Counted from the stretch's first letter, positions 1-7,602 are shown. The stretch is 7,602 bases of DNA from Gemmatimonadota bacterium (GCA_002686955.1 NYZA01000208.1:1-7602); one strand, 5' to 3'. Numbers and translations: made by a program. The notes: a model not told the origin generated them from the letters alone.

Positions 1-1507
1 CCAGCCGATATCCGCTCCAGAAAGCCCTCTCCGCCTCCGGATCGGCGGGCGGAATTCGGGCGGCGCCTCCAGTCGTGATGGTCGCACGCAGCACCCGCCG
101 CGCGCCACCCGAAGCCTCGACCTCGGCTTTCACGTGATCGACGAGTCCAAGGGTGTCGGTGGGAGCGAAGTAGACACAGGCCATCCCCTCGGGCGTCAGC
201 CGTCCCCACTCAGCGCTCCACGTGCAGCGCAGCGGCCTTGACTCGCCCGGCTCCGCTTCTATGCTCAGCCGAATCTTCTCCCCGGCTCCCAGATGCACTC
301 GACTCGGGCCCACCCAACGGATCTGGAGCGGATCGACGTCGCTCGGCACGGGGTTGCGGCGCTTCCGATCCCTACGCCGAGCGGTCGGAGCTCCGTCGAA
401 ACCCCCGCTCGGCGCCTCGATCGGGGCCAGAGCCGCTTCGGGCCGCCCATCCCCTTCGCGAAGTCGCGCCCTCACGGACTCTCGTAATAGCTCGGTGGTC
501 GCACTGTCGTCCGGGTCGAGACGATGCGCGAACGCGAGCCGATCGATCGCACGCTCTCCATCCTTCTTCACCAACGCGGCTTCCGCCTCCAAACGAGCTT
601 CGGCCGCAGTGATGCGGCGCAGCAGCGTTTCCCACGTCGCAATCAGACTGTCGGGCAAAACACGCTCCGGCCGGGGGAGCATTCGCTTCGCGCGCTCAAC
701 CTCGCCCGCATCGAGCGCGACCGACGCCTCCCAAATCGCCACCTCGGGGCTCGGCCGCCGTTCCACCTGCCCCTCCCAGACGACCCATGTGAGCGCAAAC
801 ACCGCCGCTAGCAGAGCTGCCATCGCGCCCCGCATTCCTGAGCGCGGCGCCTCCCGCACACGCTCGTCCTCTCTCCGAAAGCGAAAAAGAAACCTGCCGA
901 TCCCGATCTCGTCGCCGGAGCGCAGCAAGGTGTCGGCGATCAGCTCCCCACGCACCCTCGTTCCGTTTCGACTCCCCAGATCCTTGATCGAGGGTCCGCC
1001 GGCGCTCATGTAGAAGAGAGCGTGCTCGGAAGAGACATCTGGATCGTCCACTGGAATCCAGCAGCCCAGATTGCGCCCGATCTTCGCTCCGTCGTGGACA
1101 GGGAATACGCGCGCCGACTTGCCGCCGACCACGAGCTCGATCGCCCCGATCCGCTCCCTCTGCGGTCCGGACAGCGTCGCCCGCTCGCGCTCGGAGCTCT
1201 CGAGCCGAAGCTCATAGAGCCCGACATGAACGCTTTGGTTCGGACCGAGCACCAGATCTCCCGTCACCGGCTCACCGTCCGACAAGAGCCGGCACTCTCG
1301 GTCGACCGGACTGAGCCGAAGTCCCTCGGGATCGATCCGAACCTCGACATGGCGTGGACGCACCCCTCTCGGCTCGATCCGTATGTCCGCATCCGGTCCG
1401 CTCCCGATGACGATCGCACGATCGGCAAGCCGCTGCCGAGCGATCTCCTCGCTGCCGAGCAGCAGAACCAAAGTCCTCGCAACCTCCTCGTCAGGGCCCC
1501 GGTCCAT
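1..1507 (-). CDS. Membrane protein with two FHA domains, TPR-like segment and Ig-like domain (partial, runs off left edge)
   Basis: An uninterrupted frame of 502 codons starts at ATG 1507, 12 bases after the stop of the previous gene (which is in the same frame), and leaves the window still open. Residues 12-104 form a first FHA fold (IVIGSGPDADIRI, RPRHVEVRI, closing VHVGLYELRL). It lacks the binding Arg (Ser-36), the Ser before the His, and the Asn-Gly. Residues 118-211 form a canonical second FHA: KIGRNLGCWIPV with Arg-145, DVSSEHAL with Ser-159, Ser-160 and His-162, and SRNGT with Asn-181 and Gly-182, closing IGIGRFLFRF. One membrane helix spans about 228-245 (AMAALLAAVFALTWVVW). Residues 256-350 are helical and TPR-like (FAHRLDPDDS), followed by a Pro/Arg-rich linker. 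Residues about 393-478 look like an Ig-like beta domain (CTWSAEWGRL, VYFAPTD) with two Cys (428, 444). FHA domains bind phosphothreonine and should be cytoplasmic, with the C-terminal half outside. Likely a regulator or scaffold of the pilus; the C-terminal end is unseen. Confidence 0.82.
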   Translation of the reverse strand, partial: MDRGPDEEVARTLVLLLGSEEIARQRLADRAIVIGSGPDADIRIEPRGVRPRHVEVRIDPEGLRLSPVDRECRLLSDGEPVTGDLVLGPNQSVHVGLYELRLESSERERATLSGPQRERIGAIELVVGGKSARVFPVHDGAKIGRNLGCWIPVDDPDVSSEHALFYMSAGGPSIKDLGSRNGTRVRGELIADTLLRSGDEIGIGRFLFRFRREDERVREAPRSGMRGAMAALLAAVFALTWVVWEGQVERRPSPEVAIWEASVALDAGEVERAKRMLPRPERVLPDSLIATWETLLRRITAAEARLEAEAALVKKDGERAIDRLAFAHRLDPDDSATTELLRESVRARLREGDGRPEAALAPIEAPSGGFDGAPTARRRDRKRRNPVPSDVDPLQIRWVGPSRVHLGAGEKIRLSIEAEPGESRPLRCTWSAEWGRLTPEGMACVYFAPTDTLGLVDHVKAEVEASGGARRVLRATITTGGAARIPPADPEAERAFWSGYRL

Positions 1508-1519
1508 CGTCGCCCGGCC

Positions 1520-2101
1520 CTACTCTTCCGCCGCCGGCCGGCATTCGAGCTGCATCTCCTTCGCCCACTGATATCGCGCATCGAAGGGGTCGGGAATCGA
1601 CTCGAGAACAACCTGTGCGTGGTAGAGCGCCCGCTCGAGGTCCCCGGCCGCGAAAGCGACTTCGGCGGAGCTGCGATGGAAGCGGAATCGCTCGCAGAAC
1701 TCTTTCTCAGCGATCAAGATTCGATCGAGGAGGTCGTAGAGCAGTGGAGGACTCGAGGCGATCCCCGCCGCCTCTCGTGCCGCCGCGTTCCAGACGATCA
1801 TCGCCTCGTACAGATTCCCCCAGGCGAGATCGCGCTCGTTGTAGAGGCGGTCGCCGCCGGCCGCGATCCGCTCCGCCGCTCGCAGATCTCCATCTCCCAC
1901 ACGCGCGGAGATCTCGACCAGATCGGGCACGAAGCTCGCGCAGGGAACCGACTGCTCCGCCCCTCCGACGCGGGCCTGAGGCACAGGATCGGTCTCCGGC
2001 GCCGGCGCACCCCGGTGCAAAACTCCCGCGACTACGAACAGAACGACCGCCGCTGCGTAGATCCGCAATCGGCGACTGAATCCACCGGCTATTCCGGGCA
2101 T
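1520..2101 (-). CDS. Single-pass membrane protein with TPR-like exterior domain, function unknown
   Basis: I do not recognise this 193-residue protein. It has a short basic N-terminus (SRRLR), one hydrophobic helix at about 13-28 (IYAAAVVLFVVAGVL), a Pro/Ala-rich linker (about 30-50) and a mainly alpha-helical domain from about 56 to 187. The stretch near 144-178 (SSAEVAFAAGDLERALYHA, then ESIPDPFDARYQWA) resembles one tetratricopeptide repeat, and 60-85 (GDGDLRAAERIAAGGD) resembles another. By the positive-inside rule the helical domain faces the periplasm. It contains three Cys (54, 136, 187). The ATG at 2101 has a strong SD, AAGGAGAGG (2118-2110), inside the end of the DUF192 gene, and lies four bases after its stop. 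An upstream in-frame ATG at 2131 has no SD. Position in the tad operon, and a topology and TPR-like region shared with the next gene product, suggest a partner or pilotin-like accessory role. This is inference only. Confidence 0.75.
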   Translation of the reverse strand: MPGIAGGFSRRLRIYAAAVVLFVVAGVLHRGAPAPETDPVPQARVGGAEQSVPCASFVPDLVEISARVGDGDLRAAERIAAGGDRLYNERDLAWGNLYEAMIVWNAAAREAAGIASSPPLLYDLLDRILIAEKEFCERFRFHRSSAEVAFAAGDLERALYHAQVVLESIPDPFDARYQWAKEMQLECRPAAEE

Positions 2102-2105
2102 TGGC

Positions 2106-2489
2106 TCAGCCTCTCCTTCCCTTCGAAGCATCGTTCGCGAGTTCGAGCCGCTCGCCGGGTCGAATCGACGCCTTTTCAGCGGCGCCGGCGGCCAACTCGA
2201 GCGCATGACGGGCGCCCCGGCCTCCCCACGCCAAACGCCAAGGTCCCAAGCGCGACCGAATCCTCGAGACCCGTCCCTGGGCGTCGGCGAAAACCACGTC
2301 GATCGGGAAGGCCATGAAAAAGGTGTGAATCGAGTTGCAGGGCGTGATCCACAAGCCCTCTCCCGGTTCGAGGCGCGAGCGACCGATCAGCCCGATCGCT
2401 CGGGAGACGACGGTGCTCGCCAGGCGAACCCGGTCCGCGATCTTCCGATCGCCGCAGATTACGACAGATAACGCGTGCTGTCTCAGAAT
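2106..2489 (-). CDS. DUF192 family protein, non-canonical start codon (ATT or CTG)
   Basis: A full DUF192 domain can be read here: KIADRVRLASTVVSRAIGLI, then GRSRLEPGEGLWITPC, then NSIHTFFMAFPIDVVFAD with DAQGRVSRI, ending IRPGERLEL. The order GL.GR, PGEGL.I.PC.SIHTFFM.FPIDV.F.D..G.V is the family pattern. DUF192 proteins are small beta-rich proteins of unknown biochemical role. No ATG, GTG or TTG exists in frame upstream of the domain; the first is a TTG at 2354 that would delete its first third. A GGAGAG SD (2498-2493) precedes ATT at 2489 and CTG at 2486, so I take ATT 2489 (127 residues) with CTG 2486 as the alternative. Both overlap the tadC TGA. A GTG at 2493 is in another frame. No signal peptide is visible from these starts. 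The stop lies four bases before the next ATG. The domain call is secure; the start is uncertain. Confidence 0.85.
   Translation of the reverse strand: MLRQHALSVVICGDRKIADRVRLASTVVSRAIGLIGRSRLEPGEGLWITPCNSIHTFFMAFPIDVVFADAQGRVSRIRSRLGPWRLAWGGRGARHALELAAGAAEKASIRPGERLELANDASKGRRG
2110..2118 (-). promoter_or_regulatory. Ribosome binding site that decides the start at 2101
   Basis: AAGGAGAGG on the coding strand lies in the last codons of the DUF192 gene, eight bases before the ATG at 2101-2099. No comparable site precedes the other in-frame ATG at 2131, so the shorter product is preferred. Confidence 0.75.
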
Positions 2490-3349
2490 CCACTCTCCAG
2501 CGAACGCATTACCTCGGGCACGTACGGTCCGACCAGGATCAGGAAGACGCAGGGCACGAGAAAAAGTACGGTCGGCAGGCTGATGAGAACCGCCGCGCGC
2601 CCCGCCCGCTCTTCGGCGCGCTGGAAGCGTTTCGCGCGAACCTGCTCTGATTGCATCCGCAGGGTCCGGCCGAGGGGAACACCGTAGCGATCCGCCTGAA
2701 TGATCGCCGAAGCAAGAGTCCTCACCTCGCCGATCCGCAAGCGGTCGGCGAGGTTTCGCAAGGCACCGCGCCGGGTCGCTCCCAGCCGGATCTCCAGCAG
2801 CACCATCCGCATCTCCTCGGTCAGCGCCGATGGCGTGGCCCGCTCGATGATCCGCTCGACGCCCGAGGTGAAGTCGAGCCCCGACTCCACGGAGAGCACG
2901 AGCAGATCCATGAAACCGGGGAGCAGGCGCGTAATCTCGTTGCAGCGTTTCGCGGCTCGGTGGCGCAGCCAGAGCCAGGGCAGCGAGCCGGCGATCACGG
3001 CCAAAAGCAACGACGGAATCGCCGCGACGCCCACCAAGCTGCTCCCCACCGCCGCGATCGCCGCAAAGCCCAGCGAGATCGCCACGAACTCCGCGAATCC
3101 GATCACCACCTCTTGACCGGCCCGCTCGATCAAGCGCTCATGCGCCTTTCGCAACCCGGCGATCGATCCTCGGCCCAAGAGCTCCCTCTTCCATCGCCTC
3201 GGCGCCTCCCCTCCCACGACACCGAGCGCTTCGGCAACCTGCCTGCGCCGCTCAGCTTCTACCTGGAGCACATAGCGCAAGAAGAGCGCGCCCTGGTGAA
3301 CGATCACCCCGGCCGAAAGGCCGACGATCGCCAGCAAGAGCAAACGCAT
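2483..3349 (-). CDS. tadC: Tad pilus platform protein TadC (T2SS F family)
   Basis: The 288-residue product is the second inner-membrane platform protein, expected to pair with TadB. Hydrophobic segments lie at about 2-27, 83-104, 106-128 and 252-275. The T2SSF domain runs from RLLPGFMDLLVLSVESGLDF (about 141-160) through VLLEIRLGATRRGALRNLADR (about 183-203), VRTLASAIIQADRYGVPLGRTL (about 209-230) and the basic helix QVRAKRFQRAEERAGRA. The latter is the usual TadC signature before the last membrane helix. The ATG at 3349 follows the tadB TAG with no gap and has GGAGAG (3359-3354) four bases upstream. The coding end overlaps the start region of the next, DUF192, gene. TadC is distinguished from TadB by that basic RAKR..RAEE.A helix, by its position after TadB, and by the D.G.PLG motif in place of TGGDL. 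Confidence 0.95.
   Translation of the reverse strand: MRLLLLAIVGLSAGVIVHQGALFLRYVLQVEAERRRQVAEALGVVGGEAPRRWKRELLGRGSIAGLRKAHERLIERAGQEVVIGFAEFVAISLGFAAIAAVGSSLVGVAAIPSLLLAVIAGSLPWLWLRHRAAKRCNEITRLLPGFMDLLVLSVESGLDFTSGVERIIERATPSALTEEMRMVLLEIRLGATRRGALRNLADRLRIGEVRTLASAIIQADRYGVPLGRTLRMQSEQVRAKRFQRAEERAGRAAVLISLPTVLFLVPCVFLILVGPYVPEVMRSLESGF
2493..2498 (-). promoter_or_regulatory. Ribosome binding site for the DUF192 gene
   Basis: The coding strand reads GGAGAG at 2498-2493, inside the last codons of tadC. The same GGAGAG core precedes tadB, tadC and the gene starting at 2101. Counting from the end of GGAG, the ATT at 2489 is five bases away and the CTG at 2486 is eight bases away, both workable. 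The GTG at 2493 is only one base away, too close. This site is the main evidence for a start near 2489-2486. Confidence 0.6.
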
Positions 3350-4195
3350 CTAGCTCTCCACCCGCGTCAGTTGGCGGATCGCAACGAAGGCCAGCAGGTA
3401 GAGAATCGCCACCAGTGTCAGCATCGCCAGCCCGAGCGGCGTTCCGTAGTGAGCCACGGCCCGACTCGGATCACCCACAACGGTCCAGAACAGCAGCAGA
3501 GGGGGCACGATCGCCACGAGCAATCCTTGCAGTCTGCCGGCGCTGGTCATCGACTTCAGCTTCCGCGCGACCCGGTTCCGTTCCCTAATCTGCAGCGAGA
3601 TGTTCTGAAAGATCTCTCCGAGATCTCCACCGGTCTGGTGCGCCACCGAGATCGCAGTGACGACCAGATCGAGATCTTCGGATTTCATCCGACGTGCCAG
3701 CGTTCCGATCGCCTGCTCGATCGGCGCCCCCAGCCTCGTCTCGTGCAGCACCAGCCCGAACTCCTCCGAGATCGGCGACTCCATTTCGTCCACCACGGTC
3801 CGCACCGCCTGGTGCAGATTGAGTCCGACCCGCAGGCAACTCGCGATCGTGGTGATTCCATCGACGAGCTGAAGCTCGAAGCGGCGCGAACGACGGCTGC
3901 GAAGCTGCGCCAGGATCGCCCGCGGCGCCGCATAGCCGATCGCCACCATGACCACCAGTCCGACGCTCCCCATCCCGCTCAGCAGAGCGACGAGAGCGAG
4001 AAGAACCGTTGCCAACATCGAGAGAATGAGCACCTGGTCCGCCTGCATATCGGAATACAGATAGTCGAGATCTCTCGCGGCCCGGCCGAGGAAACCGCTC
4101 CGAAAAGCACGATATCGTCGCGTCGAGATCCGCAAGCCGGCAAAGACCGCGGCGAACGCACTCAGGCCGAGGAGGCCGAGAATCGCGTAGCTCAT
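3350..4195 (-). CDS. tadB: Tad pilus platform protein TadB (T2SS F family)
   Basis: The 281-residue product is one of the two inner-membrane platform proteins on which the CpaF ATPase acts. Hydrophobic segments lie at about 3-20, 55-75 and 77-95 (close pair), 220-240 and 254-274. The T2SSF domain lies between the third and fourth: LVDGITTIASCLRVGLNLHQAV near 110-131, LVLHETRLGAPIEQAI near 148-163, DLVVTAISVAHQTGGDLGEIFQNIS near 176-200, then IRERNRVARKLKSMTSAGR. LG.P...A, TGG.L and a final R..K..TA.GR-type stretch are typical TadB features. The start chosen is the ATG at 4195-4193, which overlaps the cpaF stop as ATGA and has an excellent SD, GGGGAGAGG (4208-4200), four bases upstream. A reading frame open 25 codons further up lies wholly within cpaF and lacks such a site. 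The TAG stop directly abuts the tadC ATG. Confidence 0.95.
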   Translation of the reverse strand: MSYAILGLLGLSAFAAVFAGLRISTRRYRAFRSGFLGRAARDLDYLYSDMQADQVLILSMLATVLLALVALLSGMGSVGLVVMVAIGYAAPRAILAQLRSRRSRRFELQLVDGITTIASCLRVGLNLHQAVRTVVDEMESPISEEFGLVLHETRLGAPIEQAIGTLARRMKSEDLDLVVTAISVAHQTGGDLGEIFQNISLQIRERNRVARKLKSMTSAGRLQGLLVAIVPPLLLFWTVVGDPSRAVAHYGTPLGLAMLTLVAILYLLAFVAIRQLTRVES

Positions 4196-5772
4196 CCCGC
4201 CTCTCCCCACGGAATATCGAGCCCCCGACCGCGTAGAAGATCGACGAGGCGTGGCCGCACCCCCGTCCACGAGAAGTCGCCTACAATCCGCTGATTCTCA
4301 TCGATTCGGTTCTGCTCGAAGCGGAAAAGATCGACAAGGTGGAACTCGCCCGGCTCCGCGTCCGACACCTCCGAAATCGCGATGATCTTCCGGCTGCCGT
4401 CGGCGAAACGCTGCGTCTGCACGACGATGTTCACGGCCGACATGATCTGATCGCGAATCGCCCGAGAAGGAAGATCGAGGCCGCTCATCAGCACCATCGT
4501 TTCCAATCGAGAGAGCGCGTTCAACGGTGAGTTGGCGTGGATCGTCGTCAATGACCCCTCGTGCCCGGTGTTCATGGCCTGCAACATGTCGACCGCCTCG
4601 CCCCCGCGACACTCCCCGACGATGATCCGGTCGGGCCGCATGCGCAACGAGTTGATCACCAGCGCGCGAAATGTCACTTCCCCCTTCCCCTCGATATTCG
4701 AGGGTCGGGCCTCGAGAGCAACCAGATGCTCCTGAGGCAGGCTCAGCTCCGCCGCATCCTCGACCGTGATCACCCGCTCCGTCGTTGGGATGAAGCTGCC
4801 CAGAATATTCAGCAGCGTCGTCTTGCCCGACCCCGCCCCGCCGCTGATCACGGTATTTCGCTTGTACTCCACGCAGAGACGAAGAAAACGCGCCATCTCC
4901 CACGAGAGGCTCCCCCGCTTCACCAGGTCGCCGATGTCGAAAATCACCCGCGAGAACTTGCGAATCGTGAGGGTAGGTCCCGTGATCGCCAAGGGTGGAA
5001 TGATCGCATTGACACGGCTGCCGTCTGGCAATCTCGCGTCGACCATCGGGCGCGCCTCGTTGATCGAGCGTCCCAGTGGAGCGACAATTCTCTGAATCAC
5101 ATTCACGATCTGGTCGTCGGAGAGGAACTTCTTGTCGGTCAGACTCAGCCGCCCCTCGGCCTCGACATACACCCGATCCCGCCGGTTGACCATCACCTCC
5201 GACACCTCGGGATCGCTCAGCAAATCTTCGATCGGCCCGAATCCCAGCGAGTCCTCCATCAGCTCCTTGGCGAGCAGCTCCCGATCGACGAAGGGCGGAA
5301 TATCGCTGTCGAGCTCCCGTATCAGGCCTCGAATCGTACGTTCCGTCTCTGTTCTGAGCGCGGCATCATCGAGGCGACGCAGATCTATTCGCTGAATCAG
5401 CGTGCGGTGCAATCGCACCTTCGTCTCGAAAAACGCCTCTTCCTCTTCGTCGGTGAGGACGGAGCCTACACCGCGGCCAGCCTCCGGCTGCAACAAGAGC
5501 TCGCATTTCCCTACGCGCACGATATCTCCCGCTGCGAGCACGCGGCGATCGACACGCCGATCATTGACGTACGTACCGCCGTTCGTCCCGACATGCTCCA
5601 GAAGAACGGACCCATCTTCGCCCAACCGGATCTCGGCGTGCCGCCCATCGATCCCCTCGTGCGGCAGAAAAATGTCACACTCCGCCGCCGAACCGACGAC
5701 GCAGCTCTCGTCACCGATCGTATGAGGTTCGATCCGACCATCGGGAGTGTGCACGATCAGCACCAGCGCCAC
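4192..5772 (-). CDS. cpaF: Tad pilus assembly ATPase CpaF/TadA with N-terminal FHA domain
   Basis: The 526-residue product is the cytoplasmic secretion-superfamily ATPase that powers Flp pilus assembly. Residues 1-97 are an FHA domain: strands [26 protein letters not shown] and a closing [14 protein letters not shown]. The usual Arg after Gly-27 is Ser-28, and the Ser before xxHA is not conserved, so phosphothreonine binding is doubtful. After an acidic linker (DEEEEAFFE), residues 115-300 carry the CpaF N-terminal helical and PAS-like region ([34 protein letters not shown]). The ATPase core has Walker [10 protein letters not shown] at 311-319 (Lys-317), an Asp box ITVEDAAEL at 335-343, Walker [13 protein letters not shown] with Glu-387, and a His box [15 protein letters not shown] with His-404 and His-412, so it looks active. 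The start is GTG with only a weak SD, five bases after cpaC, suggesting coupling. Its TGA overlaps the tadB ATG (ATGA). CpaF without the FHA is usually shorter by about the length of that domain. Confidence 0.96.
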
Positions 5773-5777
5773 GGTCT

Positions 5778-7142
5778 CTACCGGCCTTCCGCATCTTCAG
5801 GATCAACGCTCTCGTCAGGCGCCGATTCATCGCTCCGCCGCTTCGAATCGATCTGCTCGTCACGCTCCGTACGAAGCTCTTCGAGCGTCCCTCCGCCGAT
5901 CATCGATCGCCCCCCCGCGAGTACATGGGGTGTCACCAGAATCAGTGTCTCGATCTCGTCGATCTGCGTGCGATTCGACCCGAAAAGAAGCCCGATAAGG
6001 GGAATCCGCCCGACGAGCGGAATCGGTAGAGAGCGCCGCGTCTCTACCTCGGCCGTCGAGAGCAACCCGGCGATCGCCAAGGTCTCTCCTGCCCTTACCT
6101 GGACACTCGTCGAAGCCTCTCTGGAGCGAATCCCCGGCGTGCCCAGCACCGAATTCGCGTAATCCGGCTCCGATACCTCGGCGTGGATCTCGAGCGCCAC
6201 CGCGTCGGCCGCGACGATTCGCGGCGCCACCTCGAGAATGGTGCCGTAGTCCTGAAACTGAACCGTCACCGCTCCCTGGCTGCTCTCGACCGGATAGGGC
6301 AGCCTCCCCCCCACCTGAAAGCGCGCATTGGCTCCGTTCTCCGCCACGAGCTGGGGCTTGGCCAGCAGCTTCGCATCGCCCCTCTCTTCGAGCGCCCGCA
6401 GCTCCACCAGCAGCGGCGATATGCGCGCCATCTTTCCCACCGCGACGGGATTGTCGCCCAGGTCCGCGAGCGTCTCCTCACCGAAAAGAGCCCCCCCTCG
6501 CGGCGGCGAAAATTGATACTCCAAACCCCGATCGGAATCGCTGAAATCGATATCGAATTGTTGCAGGGTCTCGAACCATTCCAGCCCAAGCTCCTCGACC
6601 CCGTTTCGAGTCAGCTCGAAAACCTTCACATCGAGCTGCACATTGCTGCCGACCGTCAGATTCTCGACCAAATCGATGACATTGTCGAAACGCTCTACGA
6701 CCTTTCTGTATCGATCCAGCTCGCTCCTCGTTCGAATCGCCCCCCGAACCGCGATATTCGATCCGGCATCGACAACCTCGATCCCGAAAATATCGCCGAT
6801 CAAGAGCTGCAAATCGTCGGCCGCGATCCGCTGTGAAACGACACGAATCCTCCTGGTCTCCGTGCGTCCCCCGGGATAAACGATCGTAATGCTGGTGCTA
6901 CCTTCCCCTACTCCCGTGATGATCACCTGCCGGTTCCCGGGCAGCGCCCGCACCGAGACAACACTTCGATCGGCGGCAACGATATTCGAAAAGCGCGCAA
7001 GCTCGAGCGTCCTTTGCTCATTCGGATCGAGCTGCATCGCCGGCGCCTGCGCGAATGCGATCGGAGCACATGCTAAAAACAATATCGCCAACAACAATCG
7101 CCGGCCGCGCCCAGTTTCGTTGCCAACGCTCCTAACGCTCAT
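5778..7142 (-). CDS. cpaC: Tad/Flp pilus secretin CpaC/RcpA
   Basis: The 454-residue product is the outer-membrane channel through which the Flp pilus exits. A signal peptide covers about residues 1-31: basic start (GRGRR), hydrophobic core LLLAILFLACAPIAFA, likely cut after AFA. Residues 36-102 form the pilus/secretin N-terminal domain, with RFSNIVAADRSVVSV and a GxGEGSTSITI strand typical of CpaC. Residues about 105-165 form a BON-like fold. The secretin domain runs from about 168 (VQLDVKVFELTRNGVEELGL) to 405. It includes LLAKPQLVAENG, the VAPRIV strand, PGIRSREASTSVQVRAGETL, the PLVGRIPLIGLLFGS signature and the closing LILVTPHVL. Residues about 409-454 are a highly charged, likely disordered tail. 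The ATG (7142-7140) lies inside the end of cpaB, with a modest GGTGA-type SD. The length is normal for the family. The TAG stop is five bases before cpaF. Confidence 0.95.
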   Translation of the reverse strand: MSVRSVGNETGRGRRLLLAILFLACAPIAFAQAPAMQLDPNEQRTLELARFSNIVAADRSVVSVRALPGNRQVIITGVGEGSTSITIVYPGGRTETRRIRVVSQRIAADDLQLLIGDIFGIEVVDAGSNIAVRGAIRTRSELDRYRKVVERFDNVIDLVENLTVGSNVQLDVKVFELTRNGVEELGLEWFETLQQFDIDFSDSDRGLEYQFSPPRGGALFGEETLADLGDNPVAVGKMARISPLLVELRALEERGDAKLLAKPQLVAENGANARFQVGGRLPYPVESSQGAVTVQFQDYGTILEVAPRIVAADAVALEIHAEVSEPDYANSVLGTPGIRSREASTSVQVRAGETLAIAGLLSTAEVETRRSLPIPLVGRIPLIGLLFGSNRTQIDEIETLILVTPHVLAGGRSMIGGGTLEELRTERDEQIDSKRRSDESAPDESVDPEDAEGR

Positions 7143-7602
7143 AGGTCACCGCCGGCTTCCGTTCAGGCGCCTTCTTCCGCGGCTCGGGCGGATCCAGCTC
7201 AAGCAGACGTTCCAGAGTCATCTCCTCGGCCGCATCCGGCCTCGACAAATCGTCGGGATGGCGGAGCACCAGCCGAATCTCCGCCGTCTCACTGGAAAGA
7301 GCGAGAACCTCCGCTTCCCGATGGGTCACCTTCAGCGTCACCGTCGTCGCGTTCGCGCGTTTGCGCCCCTTCGTCGCCAACATCGAAAGACCGGGCAGCT
7401 GATCCCCGCCGAAGCTGATTCCGGTCCGCTCCCCCACCGCCAGCACCGGCACGGTCTCGGGGATCTCCCCCTCACCTTCACCCTCACCTTCGCCCTCGCC
7501 CTCACCTTCACCCTCACCTTCACCCTCACCTTCACCCTCACCTTCGCCCTCACCCTCACCTTCGCCCTCACCCTCACCTTCGCCTTCGCCCTCACCTTCG
7601 GC
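7132..7602 (-). CDS. cpaB: Flp pilus assembly protein CpaB/RcpC, C-terminal part (gene runs off right edge)
   Basis: This is the C-terminal 156 residues of a CpaB/RcpC-type protein, the periplasmic partner of the Tad secretin, anchored in the inner membrane. After a Glu-Gly repeat the sequence reads PETVPVLAVGER, then TVTLKVTHREAEVLALSS, then IRLVLRHPDD. This matches the usual CpaB order: the VLAVG strand, the TVTL..T..EAE.LALA helix-strand unit, and the final LxLRxPxD motif. A charged tail of about 38 residues, rich in Pro, Lys and Arg, follows and ends VTYER before a TAG stop at 7134-7132. The signal anchor and the first half of the protein (SAF-like domain) lie outside the window. The next gene, cpaC, starts inside this one (11-base overlap), so translation is probably coupled. 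Identification rests on these motifs and on the position directly before a CpaC secretin. The Glu-Gly insertion is unusual for the family as I know it. Confidence 0.85.
   Translation of the reverse strand, partial: AEGEGEGEGEGEGEGEGEGEGEGEGEGEGEGEGEGEGEGEGEGEGEIPETVPVLAVGERTGISFGGDQLPGLSMLATKGRKRANATTVTLKVTHREAEVLALSSETAEIRLVLRHPDDLSRPDAAEEMTLERLLELDPPEPRKKAPERKPAVTYER
7465..7599 (-). repeat. In-frame hexanucleotide tandem repeat encoding (Glu-Gly)22 in cpaB
   Basis: On the coding strand the six-base unit GA(G/A)GG(T/C) runs uninterrupted from 7599 to 7468, giving 22 Glu-Gly dipeptides followed by one more Glu (7467-7465). Higher-order structure is visible on the plus strand. A 12-base unit ctcaccttcacc occurs three times in a row (7501-7536), and an 18-base unit ctcaccctcaccttcgcc occurs twice in tandem (7549-7566 and 7567-7584). 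The mixed third positions show it is not a perfect array. Because the unit is six bases, copy-number change would keep the frame. The repeat sits just before the PETVPVLAVG strand of CpaB and may begin at or just beyond the right edge, where the first complete codon encodes Ala. Confidence 0.95.

Follow-up and report, generated by a model that had tools for sequence, protein, structure and literature searches.

The stretch of DNA analysed here, referred to as the window, is 7602 bp long and makes up the entire contig C208 of a Gemmatimonadota genome of 4.28 Mb that is 84.5% complete. It encodes a core Tad (type IVc) pilus operon of the kind in which the motor ATPase CpaF bears an FHA domain. 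The genes of interest are all located on the minus strand, separated by small gaps or overlaps, in the order CpaB fragment, CpaC secretin, FHA-CpaF, TadB, TadC, a DUF192 protein, a protein of a family here called P4, and a membrane protein with two FHA domains and a transmembrane (TM) helix, here the tandem FHA protein; this spacing suggests a single operon. The Tad core set (CpaF/TadA, TadB, TadC, the RcpA/CpaC secretin and RcpC/CpaB) is present together in this co-oriented run, with Pfam matches. The initial annotation of this DNA requires two corrections, namely that the window is a complete contig and that the C-terminus of the tandem FHA protein is cut at the contig end, where about 50 residues are missing as judged from the version in G001, the only other genome of the class compared, which belongs to a different genus of the same family.

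FHA domains are modules that normally read phosphorylated threonine. The proposal of the initial annotation that the operon encodes three such modules, one at the N-terminus of CpaF and two in the membrane protein, of which only the last has an intact ligand site, was confirmed by Pfam matches and residue alignment. In the CpaF FHA, Ser28 and Asp42 occupy the canonical Arg and Ser positions as had been noted, to which Gly65 at the Asn position can be added; FHA1 of the membrane protein carries Ser36 in place of the Arg and, within VRPRH, an Arg in place of the Ser, and its Asn-Gly is absent, while FHA2 has the complete phosphothreonine ligand set of Arg145, Ser159, His162 and Asn181-Gly182 and is, by these residues, a candidate phosphothreonine reader. 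FHA2 also aligns over the ligand motifs with the phosphothreonine readers GarA, OdhI, DgcB and MDC1 in sequence matches. In the membrane protein, one TM helix comes after a pair of stretches that Pfam matches to FHA/Yop-YscD_cpl, and in an AlphaFold2 model both stretches form beta domains (predicted local distance difference test, pLDDT, mostly 80-95) that VIA-align matched to FHA folds, with Z up to 16.6 for FHA2 (EmbR, OdhI, GarA) and 13.2 for FHA1 (3hx1). By sequence FHA1 is marginal, its score of 20.7 bits lying exactly at Pfam's cut-off, and the CpaF FHA was assigned from hidden Markov model scores alone, the structure model covering the membrane protein. Chance FHA calls were ruled out by the Pfam scores, the agreement with the orthologue and the predicted folds. 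No FHA domain besides these three was found in the window's genome at E up to 1, and the same genome gave 11 kinase matches and one PP2C.

Regarding the tandem FHA protein as a whole, no relative was found among the named genomes searched, and the region after the FHA pair was recognised in G001 only. A search with the C-terminus of the orthologue did not yield a contig carrying the rest of the gene; a match on contig C109 from this search was examined and rejected as the continuation. Bridging of the contig end by way of an MTAP-like neighbour likewise gave no match, in a search that had no positive control.

The G001 locus (L053, on contig C669) has the same order of CpaB, CpaC, FHA-CpaF, TadB, TadC, DUF192, P4 and tandem FHA genes, and its FHA-CpaF is 67% identical to that of the window. 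G001 contains the same three FHA domains, with no others found in its genome, and the comparison bears out the degeneration of two of them: the ligand positions of its CpaF FHA are Ala/Glu/Ala and those of its FHA1 are Ser/Glu/none, so that both sites are degenerate in both genera and the losses are therefore old and not random. However, FHA2, described by the initial annotation as the one sensing module, is also broken in G001, where Arg, His and Gly are kept and Ser is replaced by Ala and Asn by Ser; a sensing role is plausible for this species and is not conserved in the lineage. Between the two genera the domains are 40% (CpaF FHA), 37% (FHA1) and 46% (FHA2) identical, and given this overall identity of FHA2 and the loss of its Ser and Asn in G001, its ligand residues have not been specially kept. 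The genes located 3' of the FHA gene in G001 are MTAP-like, FliW-like and flagellin-like (named by eye from translations), no kinase or phosphatase was found in its 13.3 kb locus, and its genome has nine kinase matches with no canonical FHA found.

The history of the CpaF site was followed in 80 named CpaF loci and 20 from further genomes, scanned with a purpose-built FHA profile, and in a tree of 99 CpaF rows built from the ATPase part, with Lys counted as equivalent to Arg when sites were scored as intact or degenerate. The FHA-bearing CpaFs form one group of 51 rows (SH-aLRT 95), which includes one row without an FHA; a very long FHA row, L150_b, falls outside it at the drawn root. The L150 locus has a second, very divergent FHA-CpaF. 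Of the FHA-CpaF sites, 23 rows are intact and 28 degenerate, and only five state changes are needed among FHA-bearing rows, a clustering of losses on the tree by which random variation of the sites was ruled out; for a three-state label on the whole tree, the observed number of changes was never matched or undercut in 200 shuffles. The window groups with G001 as a degenerate pair, and the site is degenerate in all 16 members of a Pseudomonadota-type clade (L062-L111), often with Lys, Gly and Gly. Because intact rows are dispersed across many branches of the clade, the intact state is probably the ancestral one for FHA-CpaF, the deep order within the group being without resolution.

FHA membrane proteins are encoded after TadB/TadC in Auribacterota, Lentisphaeria/Victivallales, Planctomycetota and others, and after CpaF in Myxococcota, and the state of their sites differs between lineages. 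In Victivallales-type loci the FHA2 Arg is replaced by Ser in six of six, five of which have a canonical FHA1; both tandem FHAs are canonical in Myxococcus, and FHA1 lacks the Asn in Bdellovibrionota. P4-family proteins vary as well: those of L060, L079 and L156 begin with an FHA domain, those of L063 and L061 have an N-terminal FHA that is degenerate but still recognisable, and those of the window and G001 have none. The C-terminal part of P4 is confidently helical in the structure model, and no confident PDB match was obtained for this domain (best E 0.026, to designed repeats and TPR proteins).

A complete Tad operon with four canonical FHAs is present on one strand in genome G218 (L156:304-16139), in the order PP2C, prepilin peptidase, TadE/TadG-like genes, CpaB, CpaC, FHA-CpaF, TadB, TadC, DUF192, FHA-TM-P4, FHA-FHA-TM-TPR and a Ser/Thr kinase with a TM helix and an NHL propeller, and its core gene order is that of the window. 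A kinase gene is also located directly 3' of the FHA genes in L102, at the end of the gene run in L150 and upstream in L112, where a PP2C directly follows the tandem FHA gene, and both kinase and PP2C are present at L119. In the Bdellovibrionota-type loci L082, L087, L100 and L114 (first 3.2 kb) the tandem-FHA gene is directly followed by a PP2C, these genes lying upstream of a Tad operon with an FHA-less CpaF, and the tandem-FHA gene has TPR matches in L087. The kinase at the end of the L150 operon (L150:14302-16752) has a degenerate FHA of its own before its TM helix. Among 101 Tad loci, the window excluded, a kinase or PP2C was found at 11 of the 34 loci with a canonical FHA and at 1 of the 67 without (Fisher p 1.7e-5, a test that ignores relatedness), three of the 12 positive loci counting only through a kinase at the locus edge. 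The link of Ser/Thr kinase signalling to pilus assembly suggested in the initial annotation is thus upheld in part, by kinase and PP2C genes beside FHA genes in related Tad operons and by the kinase matches and PP2C of the window's genome, but not at the G001 locus.

Table 1. Features of the window, with the evidence for each assignment
Feature	Position	Strand	Evidence
CpaB/RcpC, C-terminal part, cut at contig end, starting with a (Gly-Glu)n repeat	7132..7602	-	RcpC Pfam 29.9 bits; repeat 7465-7600
CpaC/RcpA secretin	5778..7142	-	Secretin 134.7 bits and T2SS-T3SS_pil_N
FHA-CpaF (TadA) motor ATPase, class III architecture	4192..5772	-	T2SSE 200 bits and FHA 53.5 bits; placed in FHA-CpaF clade
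CpaF FHA domain, degenerate ligand site (Ser28, Asp42, Gly65)	5497..5718	-	FHA profile and residue alignment
TadB/CpaG inner-membrane platform protein	3350..4195	-	T2SSF 66.6 bits
TadC/CpaH inner-membrane platform protein	2483..3349	-	T2SSF 53.8 bits
DUF192 protein	2106..2492	-	DUF192 74.5 bits; same place in G001 and L156
P4-family protein, TM and predicted helical (TPR-like) periplasmic domain, likely start near 2101	1520..2206	-	Model, relatives
Tandem FHA-FHA-TM protein, C-terminus cut by contig end	1..1507	-	Pfam, model; full-length orthologue L053:9468-11117
FHA1, degenerate (Ser36, VRPRH, no Asn-Gly)	1208..1429	-	Profile and residues; Z 13.2 to 3hx1
FHA2, canonical ligand set (Arg145, Ser159, His162, Asn181-Gly182)	884..1099	-	Residues; Z up to 16.6
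Predicted TM helix of tandem FHA protein, residues about 227-247	767..829	-	Hydropathy and helix 227-247 in model

Regarding the remaining features, the 6-bp based repeat at 7465-7600 encodes about 45 residues of Gly-Glu in CpaB, a repeat that the G001 CpaB does not have, and since the contig breaks there it may be either a genuine repeat or an effect of assembly. The DUF192 frame has no ATG, GTG or TTG ahead of the domain, the first being the TTG at 2354, and its translation may use an unusual start or be coupled to the stop of TadC; the gene occupies the same operon place in several FHA-Tad operons (G001, L079 and L156). For the Flp pilin, only a weak match was obtained in the window's genome, and in G001 a match above cut-off is located on a different contig, near a prepilin-peptidase-like open reading frame.

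The reading favoured here, held to be somewhat more probable than not, is that the window carries a derived FHA-Tad operon, in which the CpaF FHA and FHA1 serve for docking independently of phosphorylation, with FHA2 left as the only candidate reader. Together with the two FHAs of the bitopic inner-membrane protein, the CpaF FHA would form a cytoplasmic docking layer that keeps CpaF close to the TadB/TadC platform; PrgH and EssC are the precedents for such putative docking. The operon type would derive from an ancestor in which a linked kinase and PP2C controlled threonine phosphorylation and intact FHAs read it; the CpaF FHA and FHA1 sites would have died before the two genera split, leaving phospho-independent binding only. 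The P4 protein of this lineage has no FHA, and FHA2, whose site is already impaired in the sister genus, would be the one remaining candidate for a phosphothreonine reader in this species. The gene order and the losses in the CpaF FHA and FHA1 that are shared with G001 argue for this history, as do the spread of intact CpaF sites over many branches of a single FHA-CpaF clade, the L156 operon with its four canonical FHAs, PP2C and kinase, the FHA-bearing P4 relatives, and the higher frequency of kinase or PP2C genes at loci with a canonical FHA. Several points weigh against it: the contrast between retention and loss of the FHA2 site rests on one comparison between two genomes of the class, neither the root of the FHA-CpaF clade nor the direction of change is proven, and the interaction between the CpaF FHA and the membrane FHAs is putative. 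In an independent-pair, tree-aware test of the kinase and PP2C linkage the traits nearly always went in the same direction, with too few pairs for significance. Furthermore, FHA2 of the window is fully canonical, and being the sole canonical FHA detected in this genome, which has 11 kinase matches, it would fit a live reader.

On the model of the initial annotation, FHA2 would be a working phosphothreonine receptor that gates pilus assembly in answer to Ser/Thr kinase activity, and the remaining two FHAs would be scaffolds. For this model the canonical residues of FHA2, its closest matches to known phosphothreonine readers, the kinases and PP2C of the genome and the kinase-bearing sister operons of other lineages all speak, as does the recurrence of a pair of one intact and one degenerate FHA in Victivallales-type loci and partly in Bdellovibrionota. 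It is nevertheless judged unlikely, given the loss of Ser and Asn from FHA2 in the only orthologue, the G001 locus without a kinase, and a ligand that is hypothetical. The same loss, in a sister genus with nine kinase matches and no canonical FHA found, would agree with all three FHAs being purely structural, as in SctD/PrgH or T7SSb EssC, and with the canonical residues of FHA2 being a functionless leftover; the match of the Yop-YscD_cpl model to these domains and the PrgH and EssC precedents (PMC3635987, PMC11217815) point the same way, but the joint survival of all FHA2 ligand positions in the window is unlikely under long neutral drift, and this explanation is considered rather improbable. 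It is also conceivable, though quite improbable, that the operon continues past the contig edge with a kinase gene after the tandem FHA gene as in L156, and is still kinase-controlled with G001 as the exception: the contig does end inside the FHA gene, and in both L156 and L102 a kinase directly follows it, but G001 has the MTAP-like gene at that place and two of the three FHA sites of the window are dead regardless.

A broader version of the derived-operon reading, put forward tentatively and as something short of an even chance, is that this Tad branch ancestrally had its own threonine-phosphorylation module, consisting of a membrane kinase, a PP2C and FHAs on the motor and on two inner-membrane proteins, which would be complete in L156 and dismantled stepwise in several lineages, the window representing an intermediate stage that retains a single reader. 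Little is understood so far about how Tad pili become active at surfaces or upon contact, and a kinase, a phosphatase and FHA readers in one Tad run, with graded loss of readers in relatives, make phospho-control of CpaF testable. An FHA on CpaF is not safely assumed to bind phosphothreonine, since more than half of the sampled FHA-CpaF proteins are without the full ligand set.

In type VI secretion systems, PpkA-PppA-Fha constitutes a threonine phosphorylation pathway. With kinase, PP2C and FHA in one cluster (ppkA/pppA: PMC3224232) it resembles L156, but it belongs to a different machine, and no kinase or phosphatase was seen at the G001 locus or at that of the window, whose contig ends inside the FHA gene. 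The SctD/PrgH/YscD proteins of type III secretion systems (PMC3635987) are, like the tandem FHA protein with its Yop-YscD_cpl matches, inner-membrane proteins having a cytoplasmic FHA without phosphothreonine residues, and mutation of the FHA residues of PrgH had no effect on secretion (PMC3635987); they differ in having a single FHA and ring-forming periplasmic domains, whereas the window has two FHAs and a different periplasmic part. The type VII secretion (T7SS) ATPases, including EssC of T7SSb and those of T7SSd/e/j (PMC11217815), similarly join a secretion ATPase to N-terminal FHAs, which depending on the subtype are either degenerate or canonical with a linked kinase, and the degenerate FHAs of EssC bind a pseudokinase (PMC11217815); here the machine is unrelated and the FHAs are on the ATPase itself.

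Earlier papers have described FHA-CpaF and Tad clusters rich in FHA domains and have suggested a signalling cascade (PMC8460266, PMC12019362); no description of a kinase-PP2C-FHA Tad operon or of clade-wise loss of the CpaF FHA site was found in the open-access papers searched. Class III CpaF has been defined by an N-terminal FHA, described as phosphothreonine-binding and mostly betaproteobacterial (PMC12019362), and the window shares with it the FHA fused to the N-terminus of the motor and is placed with FHA-bearing CpaFs, but its site is degenerate, as are those of the Pseudomonadota-type clade in this sample. For the Kil system of Myxococcus, FHA-based signalling in a Tad system has already been proposed (PMC8460266), and the likeness extends to KilF, which is an FHA-CpaF, and to its FHA-domain neighbours (PMC8460266, PMC12075869); in the myxobacterial loci L089 and L099, and also in L168, a tandem FHA-FHA-TM gene directly follows CpaF. 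The FHAs of these three loci are canonical, whereas the window has two dead sites; moreover, the Tad genes of Kil lie in two separate clusters, whereas in the window TadB and TadC are encoded in the same operon.

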